Shown piece after piece: positions 6,062-12,220 of a DNA stretch of 15,203 nt. The position numbers and the translations under genes were made by a program. The notes under the pieces were generated by a model. It had not been told where the DNA came from. It searched no databases and saw nothing but the letters and a program-made list of their open reading frames with translations. Each line of letters starts with the position of its first letter. Positions within the stretch are counted from its first letter, which is position 1. The stretch is taken from the NCBI GenBank assembly GCA_016928495.1, contig JAFGKQ010000142.1, positions 1 through 15,203 on the forward strand. Direction: 5' to 3'. The DNA is from Candidatus Fermentibacterales bacterium. GTDB lineage: Bacteria > Fermentibacterota > Fermentibacteria > Fermentibacterales > JAFGKQ01.

Positions 6062-7828
6062 GTGTCCGGTATGGCCCGGGAACGAAGCACCAGCGACATC
6101 CCCCTGGGGGCGCTGCCCCTGCTTGCGGTCGACTGCCAGACTACAGGGCCGGCGCCCGCGACCAGCAGGTTGCTGGAGATCGCATGGGTCCGGCTGCCCA
6201 TGACGGCCCAACCCGGACCGCCGCCGTCCGACGGGGTCAGCTTCGTTCTGGCCCAGCCCCCGGACGAGCCGGTGGCCACGGCCATACTCAGACTCACCGG
6301 CATCTCGCAGGAGGACATCACGGGCGGAGCTGACCCGAAGGCGGTCTCCCGGGCCCTCCGGGAGGCGATGGAATCGCTCCCTCCGGTGCCGGGCGGCCCG
6401 TTCCTGCTCGCCCACTACGCCCGGTTCGAGCGACCCTGCGTCGAGTCACTGCTCGATCTGACCGGCACCGCGATGCGCCCGGTGTTCATCTGCACCTGGG
6501 AGATAGCGAGAAGGGTTCTCCCCGAGCTACCCAGGAGGGGACTGAGGGCAATCTCCGGCTACTTCGGGCACGGGATCCATGATCTGAAGCGGGCGCTGCC
6601 CAACGCACTTGCCACCGTGACCGTGTGGTACGGCCTGCTGGATCTGCTTGACTCCGAGCGCGGGATCACTGGTCTCCGGGGCCTGCTCGAGCTTCTGCAG
6701 GAACCCCCGCCAGCCCGAACCAGGAACTGGGACATCCCGATGCCCAGAGAGGACAGGCTTGCGATCCCGGACGGCCCGGGGGTCTATCGCTTCCTGGGCG
6801 CTTCCGGCCAGGTGCTCTACGTGGGCAAGGCGACCAGCCTCAGGTCCAGGGTCAACAGCTACTTCAGGACCAAGAGAGCAGACGAGAAGGTCCTCGAGCT
6901 GGTGACTCAGACCAGGCTGATCGAAACCACACCGACCGAGACGGCCCTGGAGGCGGCACTTCTGGAGCTCGAGCTGATCAGGTCGCTGAACCCGCCCTAC
7001 AACACGCTTCTCAGGGACAGGGGCCGGGAGGTCTGGCACTACTCACCCGACCTCGGTCGCTGCTCGTGCGAGGGCGCCACCGGGTTCCCCGTGGGCCCCC
7101 TGCCATCGAGCGACTGCCTGGCTCCGATGCTCATGGTCCGAGAGCTCCTGGATCGGGGGGCCGCTGACGAGAAGCACAGGGACCTCTTCTGCTCCGTCAT
7201 GGCCATCGAGCCCTCCAGGCTCGATGCCGATACGCTGGAAGAGGCGCTGGACCGCTTCAGGATCGCGCGACTCGACGGGCTGGCCGGCACGCCGTCCATC
7301 ACTTCCATGCTCCGAGCGGGCGCCGCGATCTGGATCGAGAAACTGGCCGAGAGGGAAGAGGCGCGGCAGGTCGAGGAAGGAAAGGGCGCCGAAGGGTGCG
7401 AGCCTGCCTCGGTTGCCGTTGCGGAGCCCCCTCTTTCTGCCGACCAGGCCACGCGCTATCTGGAGGGCGCGGTGTCGCACTGCGCTCATCTCGTCAGGCG
7501 CTCGAGGTGGTTCAGGCTGCTCTCCGACTCCCTGCTCCTGTGGACCCCCGGAGGAGTCACTTCCCGCTCCAGGCGATGCCTGGTGCTCCGTGGAGGACAG
7601 GTGATCCGCTGCGACGCCCTTCGGCATGCCGGCGAGCCTGAGGATGGCGGCCCCGGCCCGGGAGGAGCGCGCCGGATACCTGACAGGGCGGCCTACGAGA
7701 GGCTCCGCCTGGTCACGACCGAGCTCCGCCGGCTGGTCTCGACCGATGGCGCCGCTCCGGAGGTCCACCTGCCAACGGAAAGAGTGCTGTCGGCCGAGCG
7801 GCTCGAGCGCCTCCTCCGCATGCAATAA
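6062..7828 (+). CDS. DnaQ-fold (degenerate) exonuclease + GIY-YIG (UvrC N-terminal) fusion protein
   Basis: This is a 588-residue protein. Residues ~20-200 have the DEDDh exonuclease fold (LLAVDCQTTG at 21-29, LAHYARFE at 116-123, KRALPNALAT at 176-185), but most metal-binding residues are replaced. Residues ~235-325 are a UvrC-type GIY-YIG nuclease with its signature intact: PGVYRF (239-244), LYVGKA (252-257), Arg261/263, Glu302 or Glu304 in ALLELELIRS, and PPYN ending at Asn314. The C-terminal ~260 residues resemble the poorly characterised tail of this fusion family (VGPLPSSDCL..), which is best known from actinobacterial DnaQ-UvrC proteins and is related to Cho/UvrC incision activity. Start is GTG 6062 or ATG 6071; neither has a clear ribosome site. 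The TAA stop lies inside the first copy of a repeat. It is the first of two plus-strand nuclease-type genes. Confidence 0.9.
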   Translation: MSGMARERSTSDIPLGALPLLAVDCQTTGPAPATSRLLEIAWVRLPMTAQPGPPPSDGVSFVLAQPPDEPVATAILRLTGISQEDITGGADPKAVSRALREAMESLPPVPGGPFLLAHYARFERPCVESLLDLTGTAMRPVFICTWEIARRVLPELPRRGLRAISGYFGHGIHDLKRALPNALATVTVWYGLLDLLDSERGITGLRGLLELLQEPPPARTRNWDIPMPREDRLAIPDGPGVYRFLGASGQVLYVGKATSLRSRVNSYFRTKRADEKVLELVTQTRLIETTPTETALEAALLELELIRSLNPPYNTLLRDRGREVWHYSPDLGRCSCEGATGFPVGPLPSSDCLAPMLMVRELLDRGAADEKHRDLFCSVMAIEPSRLDADTLEEALDRFRIARLDGLAGTPSITSMLRAGAAIWIEKLAEREEARQVEEGKGAEGCEPASVAVAEPPLSADQATRYLEGAVSHCAHLVRRSRWFRLLSDSLLLWTPGGVTSRSRRCLVLRGGQVIRCDALRHAGEPEDGGPGPGGARRIPDRAAYERLRLVTTELRRLVSTDGAAPEVHLPTERVLSAERLERLLRMQ

Positions 7829-7848
7829 TGGGGACACAACACTTATCT
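7824..7848 (+). repeat. 25-bp repeat end, copy A (contains a stop codon)
   Basis: This copy matches the consensus seen at 7956-7980 (reverse strand) at 22 of 25 positions by eye. Its core reads GGGGACACAACACTTATCT. The TAA that ends the GIY-YIG fusion gene (7826-7828) falls within it. It lies in the same orientation as copy B, six bases before it, so it may be the remnant end of another element. Confidence 0.8.
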
Positions 7849-7853
7849 CTAGG

Positions 7854-7980
7854 AGTTATGGGGACACAACACATATCTCTCTGCTGACACAGTCTACTGC
7901 CCGATGAGCAACACTGGCCGGCTCGAGGGATGCCTTCCGGACCGGACAGACGGGGAGATAAGTGATGTGTCCCCATAACT
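7854..7980. mobile_element. REPIN/MITE-like element 1, ~127 bp with inverted ends (copies B and C)
   Basis: The left end (7854-7878, core GGGGACACAACACATATCT) and the right end (7956-7980, reading GTGATGTGTCCCCATAACT on the plus strand) are inverted copies of a 25-bp sequence agreeing at 23 of 25 positions. The interior of about 77 bases holds no gene. Element 2 is nearly the same length, and its interior shares short blocks (CTCTGC..CACAG at the left, TCCGGA towards the right). Non-autonomous elements with such ends are typically moved by a transposase encoded elsewhere, for example a REP-associated Y1 (RAYT) enzyme; none is present in this window. Confidence 0.7.
7956..7980 (-). repeat. 25-bp repeat end, copy C (contains the phosphoesterase start codon)
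   Basis: This copy is identical over all 25 bases to copy E at 8872-8896, in the same orientation. On the plus strand it contains GTGATG, and the ATG at 7965-7967 is the best start for the metallophosphoesterase. The adjoining GGGGAG at 7952-7957 is a good ribosome binding site seven bases upstream, and its last two bases belong to the repeat. Confidence 0.85.
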
Positions 7981-8894
7981 CCATCAGACTGCTCTTCCTG
8001 TCAGACACCCACCTCGGGTATGACATGCCCCGGCGCATGACGGGGTCGGTCCGTCCGCGGCGCGGACAGGACTTCTTCGAGAGCTTCGACAAGGCACTGC
8101 GCCCTGCCCTGGACGGACAGGTGGATGTGGTGGTCCATGGCGGCGACCTGTTCTTCCGCAGTCGAGTGCGGCCAAGGCTGGTGGGCATGGTCCTGGACCG
8201 GGTCCGGAAGGTCGTCGAGGCAGGAGTGCCGTTCGTGGTCGTACCGGGCAATCACGAGAGGTCCTCGATGCCCTTGCCGATGCTGTGGCCCATGGAAGGC
8301 ATCGAGGTGCTGAGCGAGCCGCGCACGGTCCTGCTCGATCGGCGAGGCCTGAGGGTAGCCCTGGGCGGATTCCCCTACTTCGACGGCGACGTGAGGGGCC
8401 GCTTCCCCGACCTGGTCGGGCGAACCGGCCTGGGCAGCGCCGGAGCGGACATCAGGCTCCTGTGCATGCACCAGCTCGTGGAGGGTGCCACGGTCGGGCC
8501 CTCGGACTACGTGTTCCGGGGAGGCCCGGACGTCATCCCCGGCGCTGCCCTGCCCCGGAACGTGGCGGTCGTTCTGTGCGGCCATGTCCACAGGATGCAG
8601 GTGCTTACCAGGGATCTCCGGGGCAGCAGGCTACCGTCCCCGGTGATCTACGCCGGCTCGACGGAGCGAACCTCACTTGCCGAACGGGGCGAGCAGAAGG
8701 GCTACTACATCCTCCAGCTCTGCCCAGCGGCTTCGGGTGCGGGCAGGGTCGTCTCCCGCACCTTCAACCCCCTGGACATGGGGCACACGACACTCATCTC
8801 TGCCTCCACAGAAGCAGGTCGCCCCCGTACGAGCACACCCTATCCGGAAGACGGCCCTCGTCAGCCGCGGCAGATAAGTGATGTGTCCCCATAA
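7965..8894 (+). CDS. SbcD/Mre11-like metallophosphoesterase (putative DNA repair nuclease)
   Basis: This 309-residue calcineurin-like phosphoesterase has all metal ligands of the Mre11/SbcD/YhaO group: DTH (Asp14, His16), GGDLF (Asp61), GNHE (Asn96, His97), MHQ (His169) and GHVH (His207, His209), with YAGSTERTSLAE after the last motif as in SbcD-like nucleases. It lacks the long capping region of full SbcD, and no SbcC-type ATPase is nearby. ATG 7965 was chosen over GTG 7962 because GGGGAG sits at the right distance. The start codon lies in repeat copy C and the stop in the identical copy E. About the last 40 residues (270-309, MGHTTLIS.. to ..ISDVSP) are encoded by element 2 and are unlikely to be part of the native fold. 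It follows the GIY-YIG fusion gene, suggesting a repair pair. Confidence 0.9.
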   Translation: MCPHNSIRLLFLSDTHLGYDMPRRMTGSVRPRRGQDFFESFDKALRPALDGQVDVVVHGGDLFFRSRVRPRLVGMVLDRVRKVVEAGVPFVVVPGNHERSSMPLPMLWPMEGIEVLSEPRTVLLDRRGLRVALGGFPYFDGDVRGRFPDLVGRTGLGSAGADIRLLCMHQLVEGATVGPSDYVFRGGPDVIPGAALPRNVAVVLCGHVHRMQVLTRDLRGSRLPSPVIYAGSTERTSLAERGEQKGYYILQLCPAASGAGRVVSRTFNPLDMGHTTLISASTEAGRPRTSTPYPEDGPRQPRQISDVSP

Positions 8895-8896
8895 CT
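8774..8896. mobile_element. REPIN/MITE-like element 2, ~123 bp with inverted ends (copies D and E)
   Basis: The right end (8872-8896) is identical to copy C. The left end (8774-8799, GGGGCACACGACACTCATCT) is a diverged inverted copy with one extra base and several mismatches. The element lies across the 3' ends of two convergent genes: it encodes the last 40 residues and stop of the phosphoesterase, and the last 11 residues and stop of the GNAT fusion on the other strand. The length is close to that of element 1, which supports the two being copies of one family. Confidence 0.65.
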
Positions 8897-11869
8897 GAAG
8901 GCCCGGGAGAGGTCCTGCGCGGTCGAGCCAGAGCCGAAGATCCAGACCGTCTCGACGGTTCTGCAGGCATCGGTGGCTTCCCAGACGCCCACGTGGCAGC
9001 CCTCCCTGGCGTAGTCCTCCACCCAGATCTGGGAGCTCCCCAGCCTGTGCAGCTCGACGAACTCGCCTCCGGGTCCCGTCATCCTCGCCCAGTTGCCGGC
9101 GATCAGCCACGTCCCTCCGTGATCCCGTGAGACCGAGACCGAGGGGTCCCGCTGGCAGGTCATCAGAACGCCTTCCCTGCCGCCTCCGGGCGCCAGGTTG
9201 GCCCTGATGGCGAAGCCCCGGGGAGGGGTGCCTCCCGCCAGGGGCTCCACTTCCACGGCGGCGTGGAGCAGGGGCAGACCCGGCGCGAGGCCGACTCGCC
9301 AGACGAGGACGAGAGAGCCGAACCTCTCATCATCCACCTTCCAGCGGGTCTCCCAGCCCTTCAGGGGCAAGCTGCCCAAGGCGCCTTCCATCCCGGAGAT
9401 CTCGCACTCCAGCCTCTCCAGCTCCAGGGGTCTCTCGTGTTCCTCTTCCAGCCAGGGCCGTATGCCGCCGAACCAGGGCTTCTCCCAAGCGAACTCGCCC
9501 GGCCCGGGATCGCAGGCGTGCAGGTACTCCGAGCCTTCGGCGACAACACTGAAGACATGCCCCCTGGAGGAGGGCCTCATCTTCACCGACAGTGCGCCGT
9601 TCTCGACCGAGAGCACGCCGTCGTCGTCCTTCGACAGCATGGGTTCCGCCGCTCCCGAAGCAACGAACACCGGCAGCTCGATCCGCCTCCCGGCCATGGC
9701 CACCTCGAGAATGTTGAGGCCGGCGTTATCCAGAGCGGCCTCCACTGCCGAGCCCTCGTGCGAGCATCCCTCTCCCGCCTTCTCTCCACCGGTGGTCACA
9801 TCGATCTTCCTCTGCCCGTGGGCATGGTTGATCACGGAGAGGCTAGAGCCTGCCAGCGCTGCGGGGAGTCCTCTCACTTCGGGGAACCCGACCAGCATCT
9901 CCCTGTCGCTGACGTCCCAGCCGAGAGCCCTGGCAGCCCTGAGGGCGCTGTCAGTGCCTCCCTCCGTTGCCAGCAGCCGGAAGACCGGGGAGCGGAAGCT
10001 CCCGGCGGGTTCCAGAACCAGCTCCTCTGACACGAGGTTGCCGTTGGCCATCGAGTCCCAGTCCGGGAAGTAGCCGAGCACGGACCTGCCCCGGCCGGAG
10101 GCCACGAGCCATGGAGCACCGAGGTCAGCGACCCTGGACGGGAAATCGTTGTCGCCATCCGGGAACATGTTGTAGGCGTGCATGGCAGAGACCGTTCCGG
10201 TCGCGAACGGTATCGTGGTCGTCTCTCTCAGGAGCTGGGACAGGCTCCACCACCAGCTGCAGCAGAACTGAGCCTTGCCGGCCCTGTCGGAACCGTTGGC
10301 AACCTCGGCCCAGGCCTCCACGATGCCGCCTTCGAGCAACCGGCAGGAGATCCTGTGCTCCCACCCCGGGCGGGACGGCCACGAGGTTCTGCCCGAGATG
10401 CCGCTTCCGTCCGGATCCAGCGATAGCTCGTAGGTCTGGTAGGGGAAATCCGAGTTCCAGAAGGGCGGCCCCGCCGGAACCGTAATCGAGGCTAGCCTCA
10501 TTGGCTCGTCTTCGTAACCGGGTCCCAGAAGGCTGACCCTGGCTCCGCGGCGGCCAACCGCGATGGAGTAGAGGCCCCTGGTGATGACCAGGTATCTGCG
10601 GCCCTGGCACGAAGCCGCGCCGGAGAAGGCCCCCGCAACCAGAACGGTCCTGGTCTCCACGCCCTCGGTGCCGTCACAGACGGGCAGCAGGCCGAGTTCG
10701 GTCGGGCCGGTCTCGAGCGATGGCAGCGGTATCTCCACCTTCTGGAACCTGGTGCCGGCGAGATCGAACTCGTGGCTCTCCCGCCGGCCTCCGGCGACGG
10801 ACACCCCGATCGATACGCTAGAGACATCGGCGTTCCGCCTAATAAGGAGCCCCAGGCGATCCTGCCCGAAGCAGGGCCTCCGGATGGGAGCGGTCTCGAT
10901 CGAGATCAGGTCCTCGGCCCTGAAGCCCAGCCCCAGCTCCATCCAGCGGCCCTGCCCCGCGGGAACGCTGAGGGTGAGCCTCGGGGCCCTGTCGTGAGAG
11001 GTGTAGGGCACCGCCAGCGGCTTCGGATTCACGGCCATCGAGATGCCGCCGTCCGGCTCCTCCACGGTGTCACCGACCTCGAGCTCGGGAGCCAGCGTCA
11101 GGTCGCGGCCGGCGCTGCCTGTGCTGCAACTGACGGCGACCCTTACGGGAACGCCGAAGTATACCTTCTCCGCTTCGCGCTCGATGGACACGGATATGTC
11201 AGGGTCGCGCCAGGCCGAGAGCATCCTTCCCTCGGCGTCGAACTCGACCTCGAGCCTCGCGCCGTCCCTGCGCTCGAAGGCGTAGCGGAACACCTTCCTT
11301 CCGCTCGGTGCCTTCATCAGGTCCGGCTCGACGCCGAGATCCCGGACCTGGGCCGAGTACCACTCCTCCTCACCGAGGAACTCCGCGAGCTCAGGCCTTC
11401 CGAGCACGAAGGGCATGTAGTTCTGCATGTAGACGGTCGTCTCGGGTACCCAGAAGAAGCCGGTCTTCTTGTAGAGAGGAACGGCCTTCATGTTGGCGGG
11501 CCAGGTGTGCAGGTCCAGCCTGTAGTAGCCGGCCTGCGTGACTCTCTCGACCCCGTCCAGCAGGAGCCTCTTGCCTATCTTGCGTCCGTGCATGTCGGTC
11601 ACGACGTTGAGGAGAGCAACGTATGCAGCGTCGCTCTCGCCGCCGTAGGGCTCCACCCGGTTGTAGCCGACCACCCGCTCACCGTCGAAGGCGAGCATCG
11701 TGAAGAGCTTGCCGGAGAGCCTCTCCTCGCGGGAGACGCTCTGGGCGGTCATCTCCGTGGCTCCGAGGAATCCCGGAGGCCAGCCGTCGCGGCTCTCTTC
11801 CCACATGCGGGCAACGGCGGCTGCGTGGGCGTCCTCGTACTGCCTCAGGACTATCGGTTCTTCAGACAT
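8861..11869 (-). CDS. GNAT N-acetyltransferase fused to a large unknown beta-rich region
   Basis: This is a 1002-residue protein. Residues ~5-150 are a GNAT acetyltransferase: ERVVGYNRV (beta-4 region), LLNVVTDMHGRKIGKRLLL (motif A, with RKIGKR at 96-101, so the last Gly/Ala of RxxGxG/A is Arg) and PANMKAVPLYKKTGF (motif B). Acetyl-CoA binding is therefore likely. The remaining ~850 residues have no signal peptide or membrane helix and are rich in short beta-strands, Gly and Trp (for example CCSWWWSLSQLL, NMFPDGDNDFPSR, GYFPDWDSMANGN). I do not recognise this part; it could be carbohydrate-active or binding, but I see no catalytic signature. Start ATG 11869 begins MSEEPIVLRQ, the natural GNAT N-terminus; the frame is open upstream but looks non-coding. 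The last 11 residues come from a repeat element. Confidence 0.85.
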   Translation of the reverse strand: MSEEPIVLRQYEDAHAAAVARMWEESRDGWPPGFLGATEMTAQSVSREERLSGKLFTMLAFDGERVVGYNRVEPYGGESDAAYVALLNVVTDMHGRKIGKRLLLDGVERVTQAGYYRLDLHTWPANMKAVPLYKKTGFFWVPETTVYMQNYMPFVLGRPELAEFLGEEEWYSAQVRDLGVEPDLMKAPSGRKVFRYAFERRDGARLEVEFDAEGRMLSAWRDPDISVSIEREAEKVYFGVPVRVAVSCSTGSAGRDLTLAPELEVGDTVEEPDGGISMAVNPKPLAVPYTSHDRAPRLTLSVPAGQGRWMELGLGFRAEDLISIETAPIRRPCFGQDRLGLLIRRNADVSSVSIGVSVAGGRRESHEFDLAGTRFQKVEIPLPSLETGPTELGLLPVCDGTEGVETRTVLVAGAFSGAASCQGRRYLVITRGLYSIAVGRRGARVSLLGPGYEDEPMRLASITVPAGPPFWNSDFPYQTYELSLDPDGSGISGRTSWPSRPGWEHRISCRLLEGGIVEAWAEVANGSDRAGKAQFCCSWWWSLSQLLRETTTIPFATGTVSAMHAYNMFPDGDNDFPSRVADLGAPWLVASGRGRSVLGYFPDWDSMANGNLVSEELVLEPAGSFRSPVFRLLATEGGTDSALRAARALGWDVSDREMLVGFPEVRGLPAALAGSSLSVINHAHGQRKIDVTTGGEKAGEGCSHEGSAVEAALDNAGLNILEVAMAGRRIELPVFVASGAAEPMLSKDDDGVLSVENGALSVKMRPSSRGHVFSVVAEGSEYLHACDPGPGEFAWEKPWFGGIRPWLEEEHERPLELERLECEISGMEGALGSLPLKGWETRWKVDDERFGSLVLVWRVGLAPGLPLLHAAVEVEPLAGGTPPRGFAIRANLAPGGGREGVLMTCQRDPSVSVSRDHGGTWLIAGNWARMTGPGGEFVELHRLGSSQIWVEDYAREGCHVGVWEATDACRTVETVWIFGSGSTAQDLSRAFSYGDTSLICRG
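8872..8896 (-). repeat. 25-bp repeat end, copy E (end of two convergent genes)
   Basis: This is an exact 25-base match to copy C, 916 bases away. The TAA stop of the phosphoesterase (8892-8894) lies inside it. Read on the minus strand it encodes SYGDTSLI, close to the C-terminus of the GNAT fusion protein. The two genes overlap here by 34 bases. Confidence 0.85.
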
Positions 11870-12220
11870 CGCGTTCTTCTTCCTTCTTCTCGAGAATGCA
11901 GACTGTCCGGGACCACCCCTTTCGGGGGCAGGTGCATGTGAGACTCCGGGAGAGACGAAGCAGCCTTCACGCCGCTGGTCGAGCACTCGGCTCAGTGCAT
12001 CCGCTATCTGTTAACGTGATCCGGGCGGGCCGGAGGTGCCAGCGGCAGACTCCGCTCTCTAGAAGCAGGAGCCCCCGTACGAAAGAAGATTGATCATTCG
12101 GCACCCCCAATCACTGGTGGCCCTGATGGCCGGGGCTGAACGGGAAGCGAACGCGGGAATATCGAAGCAGCCAGTGAGGCTGTCCAGTGACCGGGAAGGC
12201 TGGGGGAGGCCGGGACCGCC
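11870..12220. other. 351-base intergenic region
   Basis: No convincing gene is seen; the short open frames here lack family signals. It must hold the promoter of the GNAT gene and the 3' end of the secreted-protein transcript. Visible items are a four-base-pair hairpin CCCC-GAAA-GGGG on the minus strand (11927-11916), about 45 bases before the GNAT start; CCAGTGA repeated at 12171-12177 and 12184-12190; and a 22-base stretch at 12061-12082 resembling the interior of repeat element 2. No U-tract terminator and no clear -10/-35 pair were found. Confidence 0.6.

Follow-up and report, generated by a model that had tools for sequence, protein, structure and literature searches.

A DnaQ-fold/GIY-YIG fusion protein of Fermentibacterota with a uniformly rewritten exonuclease site and a candidate helicase partner

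The window analysed here is a 15,203-nucleotide stretch of Candidatus Fermentibacterales contig JAFGKQ010000142.1, and on its forward strand a gene at positions 6071–7828 (coding 6071–7825, TAA stop 7826–7828) encodes a 585-residue protein in which a DnaQ-fold domain is fused to a GIY-YIG domain. GC content at the three codon positions of this frame is 0.69/0.53/0.84, typical of coding DNA, and an alternative GTG start at 6062 would extend the protein to 588 residues, the ATG at 6071 being the more likely start. The DEDDh-type exonuclease-like domain spans residues 15–200 (6113–6670) and is identified by Pfam RNase_T (E 1.6e-07, residues 19–167), by an AlphaFold model and by PDB matches. It is followed by a UvrC-type GIY-YIG endonuclease domain at residues 227–316 (6749–7018; Pfam GIY-YIG E 1.6e-06, residues 237–311) and a C-terminal domain at residues 319–585 (7025–7825), which opens with a UvrC/Cho-like GP segment (G342 P343). 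Both Pfam matches lie above the gathering score and the predicted folds agree, so the fusion proposed in the initial annotation is real.

Inspection of the exonuclease motifs showed that the DnaQ/RNase H-like fold is present and that, from the D, E, D, D carboxylates and catalytic His of DEDDh enzymes, only D21 is kept. Motif I (DCQ, 6131–6139) retains D21 and carries Gln for Glu at residue 23, motif II (AHYARFE, 6410–6430) retains His115 and carries Glu for Asp at residue 120, and motif III (KRALPNALAT, 6587–6616) has Lys for the catalytic His at residue 173 and Asn for the last Asp at residue 178. These are the four substitutions first called in the initial annotation, whose residue numbers (26, 123, 176 and 181) run three too high because they were counted from the GTG at 6062. 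The GIY-YIG motifs are complete, as had also been noted, with the active-site tyrosines, Arg, Glu and Asn of the UvrC/Cho type in place (Y239, Y250, R260, E299 and N311, together with G252 and K253). The UvrC structure 1yd6 matched the family profile at E 6e-29, and the catalytic residues are identical to those of E. coli Cho and the UvrC N-terminal domain, although neither of these has a DnaQ-fold domain. Conversely, the UvrB-binding, RNase H-like (EndoV) and HhH domains of UvrC are absent from the window protein, and the UvrC model TIGR00194 aligns to residues 231–316 only, with 82.8 bits against a cut-off of 285.

The AlphaFold model of the window protein has a pLDDT of 91.6, and its DnaQ part superimposes on the PolC exonuclease (Z 21.9 over 190–195 residues), the S. 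aureus DinG exonuclease (Z 19.2) and E. coli epsilon (Z about 18), while its GIY-YIG part adopts the UvrC GIY-YIG fold with 40% identity to 1yd6. When a 49-sequence family profile was aligned to the T. maritima PolC exonuclease (2p1j) and the 9qpc polymerase, the changed residues fell opposite the three exonuclease motifs. The C-terminal remainder is also predicted confidently (pLDDT 92.4), and returned no Pfam family, no PDB sequence match and no Foldseek match below E 0.1. In VIA-align, Bax1, the partner nuclease of the XPB helicase, headed a weak list (Z 3.4 over 75 residues), and we treat this likeness of the modelled domain as a lead rather than a result.

Relatives were collected by scanning one genome per species with a pattern drawn from the GIY-YIG part and not from the exonuclease site. 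This gave 50 loci, spread over Fermentibacterota, Melainabacteria/Cyanobacteriota, Myxococcota, Acidobacteriota, Bdellovibrionota, Planctomycetota, Pseudomonadota (Legionella) and Thermodesulfobacteriota. Added searches of 299 Pseudomonadota, 235 Myxococcota, 191 Bdellovibrionota and 247 Acidobacteriota genomes, and of plasmids, recovered both fusions with the rewritten site, hereafter remodelled, and fusions with an intact one. The final sets comprised 95 non-redundant remodelled sequences from at least eight phyla and 23 intact fusions; no viral relatives were present in viral_contigs. The D-x-Q motif occurs in all 94 readable remodelled sequences, and H115 and E120 (as FE or YE) in 95/95. 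Residue 178 is His in 83/95, Gln in nine and Asn, Phe or Tyr in one each, the Asn being that of the window, and residue 173 is Lys or Arg in 79/95, with the general-base His surviving in a few. Likewise, D21, Q23 and E120 are invariant within the window's own order, with named homologues in Candidatus Fermentibacteria, Aegiribacteria and Sabulitectum, and Y239, Y250, G252, R260, E299 and N311 of the GIY-YIG domain are invariant in all 95. The substitutions are not due to chance, since they are identical in every readable relative of the remodelled type, and local decay or sequencing error is ruled out by the same changes in independent genomes. The comparison with relatives that had been suggested at the outset thus shows a clade-wide loss of DEDDh, and the earlier argument against random decay holds.

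Fusions of this general architecture have been described as Cho+Exo in Betaproteobacteria and Cho-like+Exo in Actinobacteria (PMC1564403), the actinobacterial form corresponding to NCBIfam PRK07883, 'DEDD exonuclease domain-containing protein'. As in these, a DnaQ (ExoIII) exonuclease domain lies N-terminal to a UvrC-type GIY-YIG domain in the window protein, and the two align by profile over residues 13–351 (E 1.1e-50). However, intact DEDDh (D, E, D, H, D) is found in 23/23 of the sampled other fusions, which also have conserved cysteines (C340, C357, C365 and C369), whereas the remodelled type has DxQ, FE, Lys/Arg and His/Asn, no such conserved cysteines and another C-terminal domain, with homology between the types ending at the UvrC-like GP segment. 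The C4 cysteine region followed by a Cho-CTD or UvrB-binding domain is missing from the window protein, which scores 80–141 bits in NCBIfam against cut-offs of 454–1038. Profile scores are bimodal (remodelled, E below 1e-80; intact, 1e-41 to 1e-50), no intermediates between the two sites were seen in the sample, and in a maximum-likelihood tree from which the five site columns were left out, one branch with SH-aLRT 100 divides the types (quick method, unrooted).

Within the DnaQ part only six of 185 columns are invariant (D21, Q23, H115, E120, C141 and G163), and three of these belong to the site, Q23 and E120 among them being substitutions (hypergeometric P about 2e-4, a value that ignores relatedness). 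Because so small an invariant set includes substituted residues, the pocket has been rewritten and is held under selection rather than drifting, and with residue 178 near-invariant as His the description of the site as 'dismantled' does not stand. Nor has the metal site been filled by acidic residues from elsewhere, a possibility that the initial annotation had raised against its own reading and that a conservation scan of the remodelled type does not bear out: of the Asp, Glu, His and Cys positions conserved above 80%, all but those of the site itself are present in the intact type too, and no new acidic residue that could fill the site is conserved elsewhere in the domain. A new zinc site of the kind found in Maelstrom is likewise unsupported, as intact members conserve C141 and H115 as well. 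These data support the conclusion that the DEDDh site of the remodelled type cannot be a normal two-metal site, and on sequence grounds the predicted loss of exonuclease catalysis, as implied by the term pseudo-exonuclease, is well supported. In TREX1, the D200N change, which replaces the motif III Asp by Asn, strongly reduced DNA digestion in one study (PMC5416883), and this is disputed by a report of active enzyme, as cited in that paper.

Given the strict retention of D21, Q23, E120 and H178, part of an alternative metal site may remain. These four residues could even form a pocket that is still active, using one transition metal or acting on another substrate, for example a modified end, and it is in favour of such activity that the replacements are conserved as strictly as catalytic residues and that His takes the place of Asp at a metal-ligand position in most sequences. 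We nevertheless regard this as unlikely, since an essential ligand should not tolerate the Asn, Gln, Phe and Tyr seen at residue 178, two of the four carboxylates are gone with no conserved acidic replacement, and only a few members keep the general-base His.

We examined the genes beside the fusion and found that, outside Fermentibacterota, it adjoins a gene for a PD-(D/E)XK–DinG/XPD helicase in 43 of 74 loci (four duplicate loci, L111–L114, having been removed by hand), although these are not independent events because many loci come from close relatives (Legionella, Bdellovibrio). The adjacency is seen in Pseudomonadota, Cyanobacteriota, Bdellovibrionota, Myxococcota and Acidobacteriota, the two genes often overlap by 4–17 bp, and the helicase gene may lie upstream, downstream or divergent relative to the fusion; the link has therefore been kept through rearrangements. 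No such gene lies next door in the 23 intact-type loci (flanks of 0.4–2.4 kb, with the neighbour visible in most) or in the 37 Fermentibacterota loci. The partner matches Pfam DEAD_2, HBB and Helicase_C_2, has an intact PD-(D/E)XK motif with invariant SGR.DG, EEIK and QL..Y in its N-terminal part, and has conserved cysteines in the helicase part. By sequence it matches the EndoDinG subgroup of PMC11981726, which likewise joins a PD-(D/E)XK domain to a DinG helicase with FeS cysteines; Bdellovibrio EndoDinG is reported there as an endonuclease (unpublished data therein), and the text of that paper mentions neither GIY-YIG nor Legionella.

In most Fermentibacterota genomes tested, an EndoDinG-like helicase that has the nuclease motif is encoded away from the fusion. 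None was found in the window's own assembly (81% complete) or in 5/20 other remodelled-type genomes tested, and some Fermentibacterota have EndoDinG without the fusion, so that it is not an obligate partner. A Myxococcales genome (G063; L045, L124 and L127) contains two EndoDinG-like genes, with an extra DnaQ-type match beside the second on contig C231. Pseudo-nuclease domains often turn into interaction modules, and conservation of the gene pair in five phyla would fit a DnaQ-fold domain that binds no DNA and serves purely as a protein-docking platform for EndoDinG, a polymerase or a sliding clamp. There is a small chance that this is so, but docking does not demand invariance of buried active-site residues and the same site is kept in genomes with no detectable EndoDinG.

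For the intact fusions, Van Houten and co-workers proposed, as cited in PMC1564403, incision by the GIY-YIG domain and digestion of the damaged strand by the exonuclease. This digestion step has most likely been lost in the remodelled type, and we consider it fairly probable that the DnaQ domain is a module that binds DNA ends without cutting them and brings the GIY-YIG nuclease into position during DNA repair, often together with EndoDinG. Here, the four carboxylates of the pocket would be reduced to two (D21 and E120), accompanied by an uncharged Gln, by His (replaced by Asn in the window protein) and in most cases by Lys or Arg. With two negative charges lost and a Lys or Arg gained in most members, the phosphate could be gripped directly instead of through two Mg2+, and the pocket would hold a 3' end or single-stranded DNA in the absence of Mg2+ and leave it uncut. 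The module would thereby place the GIY-YIG domain, presumed active from its intact residues, for incision at a nick, flap or junction, and may also dock a partner. EndoDinG, in the same operon in many bacteria, would be that partner, supplying unwinding and degradation, such that the strand removal proposed for the exonuclease of intact fusions would be carried out by a helicase-nuclease instead.

We infer DNA-end binding, cooperation with EndoDinG and the repair role, and the DNA-binding or scaffold function that was also suggested in the initial annotation would fit the fold, the conserved pocket and two precedents. One is the MAEL domain of metazoan Maelstrom, a DnaQ fold that lost its DEDD residues clade-wide and became an RNA-binding module (PMC2628886, PMC4408791), although it is eukaryotic, binds RNA and has a separate structural zinc site (ECHC). 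The other is pExoDinG (PMC11981726), which also joins a pseudo-exonuclease to a repair enzyme but is DEDDy-related and fused to a helicase rather than to GIY-YIG.

The adjacency of the fusion and EndoDinG suggests that the two genes make up a DNA repair module not described before. A further, more tentative possibility is that the two form an excision system independent of UvrABC, in which a DinG/XPD-type helicase with its own Cas4-like nuclease would open and remove DNA, and the pseudo-exonuclease/GIY-YIG protein would bind the 3' end or junction and incise. Functionally, such a system would be similar to excision repair in eukaryotes and archaea, where a helicase is combined with a structure-specific nuclease (XPD; XPB–Bax1). 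Full-length UvrC was not found in the window's draft genome, at its 81% completeness, and in 14/16 relatives' genomes there is, besides the fusion, a second GIY-YIG frame of UvrC size (~600–750 codons), so that the fusion does not replace UvrC in those relatives.

On three Legionella plasmids the fusion/EndoDinG pair lies beside umuD and Y-family polymerase genes, with dinB, SOS-peptidase, Ku or UdgX genes also nearby on some of them. That conjugative plasmids carry the pair, that its distribution is patchy, that the helicase is related to type IV CRISPR DinG and that a phage-type integrase gene adjoins one locus (L067) could all be read as signs of an anti-phage or anti-plasmid defence module in place of housekeeping repair. 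This we judge very improbable, since the annotated plasmid neighbours are SOS and repair genes and not defence genes, and PADLOC returned only generic DEDDh and DinG matches. In Fermentibacterota no conserved repair neighbours of the fusion were found, the recurrent annotated neighbours being an AcrB-type transporter, a YjbH-like protein and a HAD hydrolase.

Exonuclease–GIY-YIG fusions, EndoDinG and pseudo-exonuclease domains are each already known, and we found no description of the remodelled clade or its pairing with EndoDinG in the literature searched, which covered few subscription journals. Known exonuclease–GIY-YIG fusions are split here into intact and remodelled types, and identical rewriting of a site across at least eight phyla, with no intermediates in the sample, makes a strong natural case of a nuclease domain becoming a non-cutting module. 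EndoDinG also gains a candidate partner gene, and a helicase-plus-endonuclease repair pathway becomes testable in laboratory strains of Bdellovibrio.

Several further features were recorded. In eight Obscuribacter-type loci (including L046:7794-10511) two co-directional ORFs of 262 and 642 aa without Pfam matches follow the fusion, and a Legionella israelensis plasmid (L098:1103-3772) carries, one after another, a separate 3'-5' exonuclease gene, a small gene for a GIY-YIG protein and a fusion of the intact type. The window itself gave no Rfam match. It contains copies of a 24-bp REP-like element, TTATGGGGACACA(A/T)CACTTATCTC, at 7826–7849 (+), 7856–7879 (+), 7955–7978 (-) and 8871–8894 (-), with about 30 in the genome and inverted pairs common. 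An ORF for an SbcD/Mre11-like metallophosphoesterase at 7962–8894 (+) is flanked by two same-orientation copies, its listed GTG start lying in one and its stop in the other, and the stop codon of the fusion gene likewise falls inside the element. On the opposite strand, positions 8864–11872 encode a protein of ~1000 aa with an N-terminal GNAT acetyltransferase domain and a long remainder beyond it.
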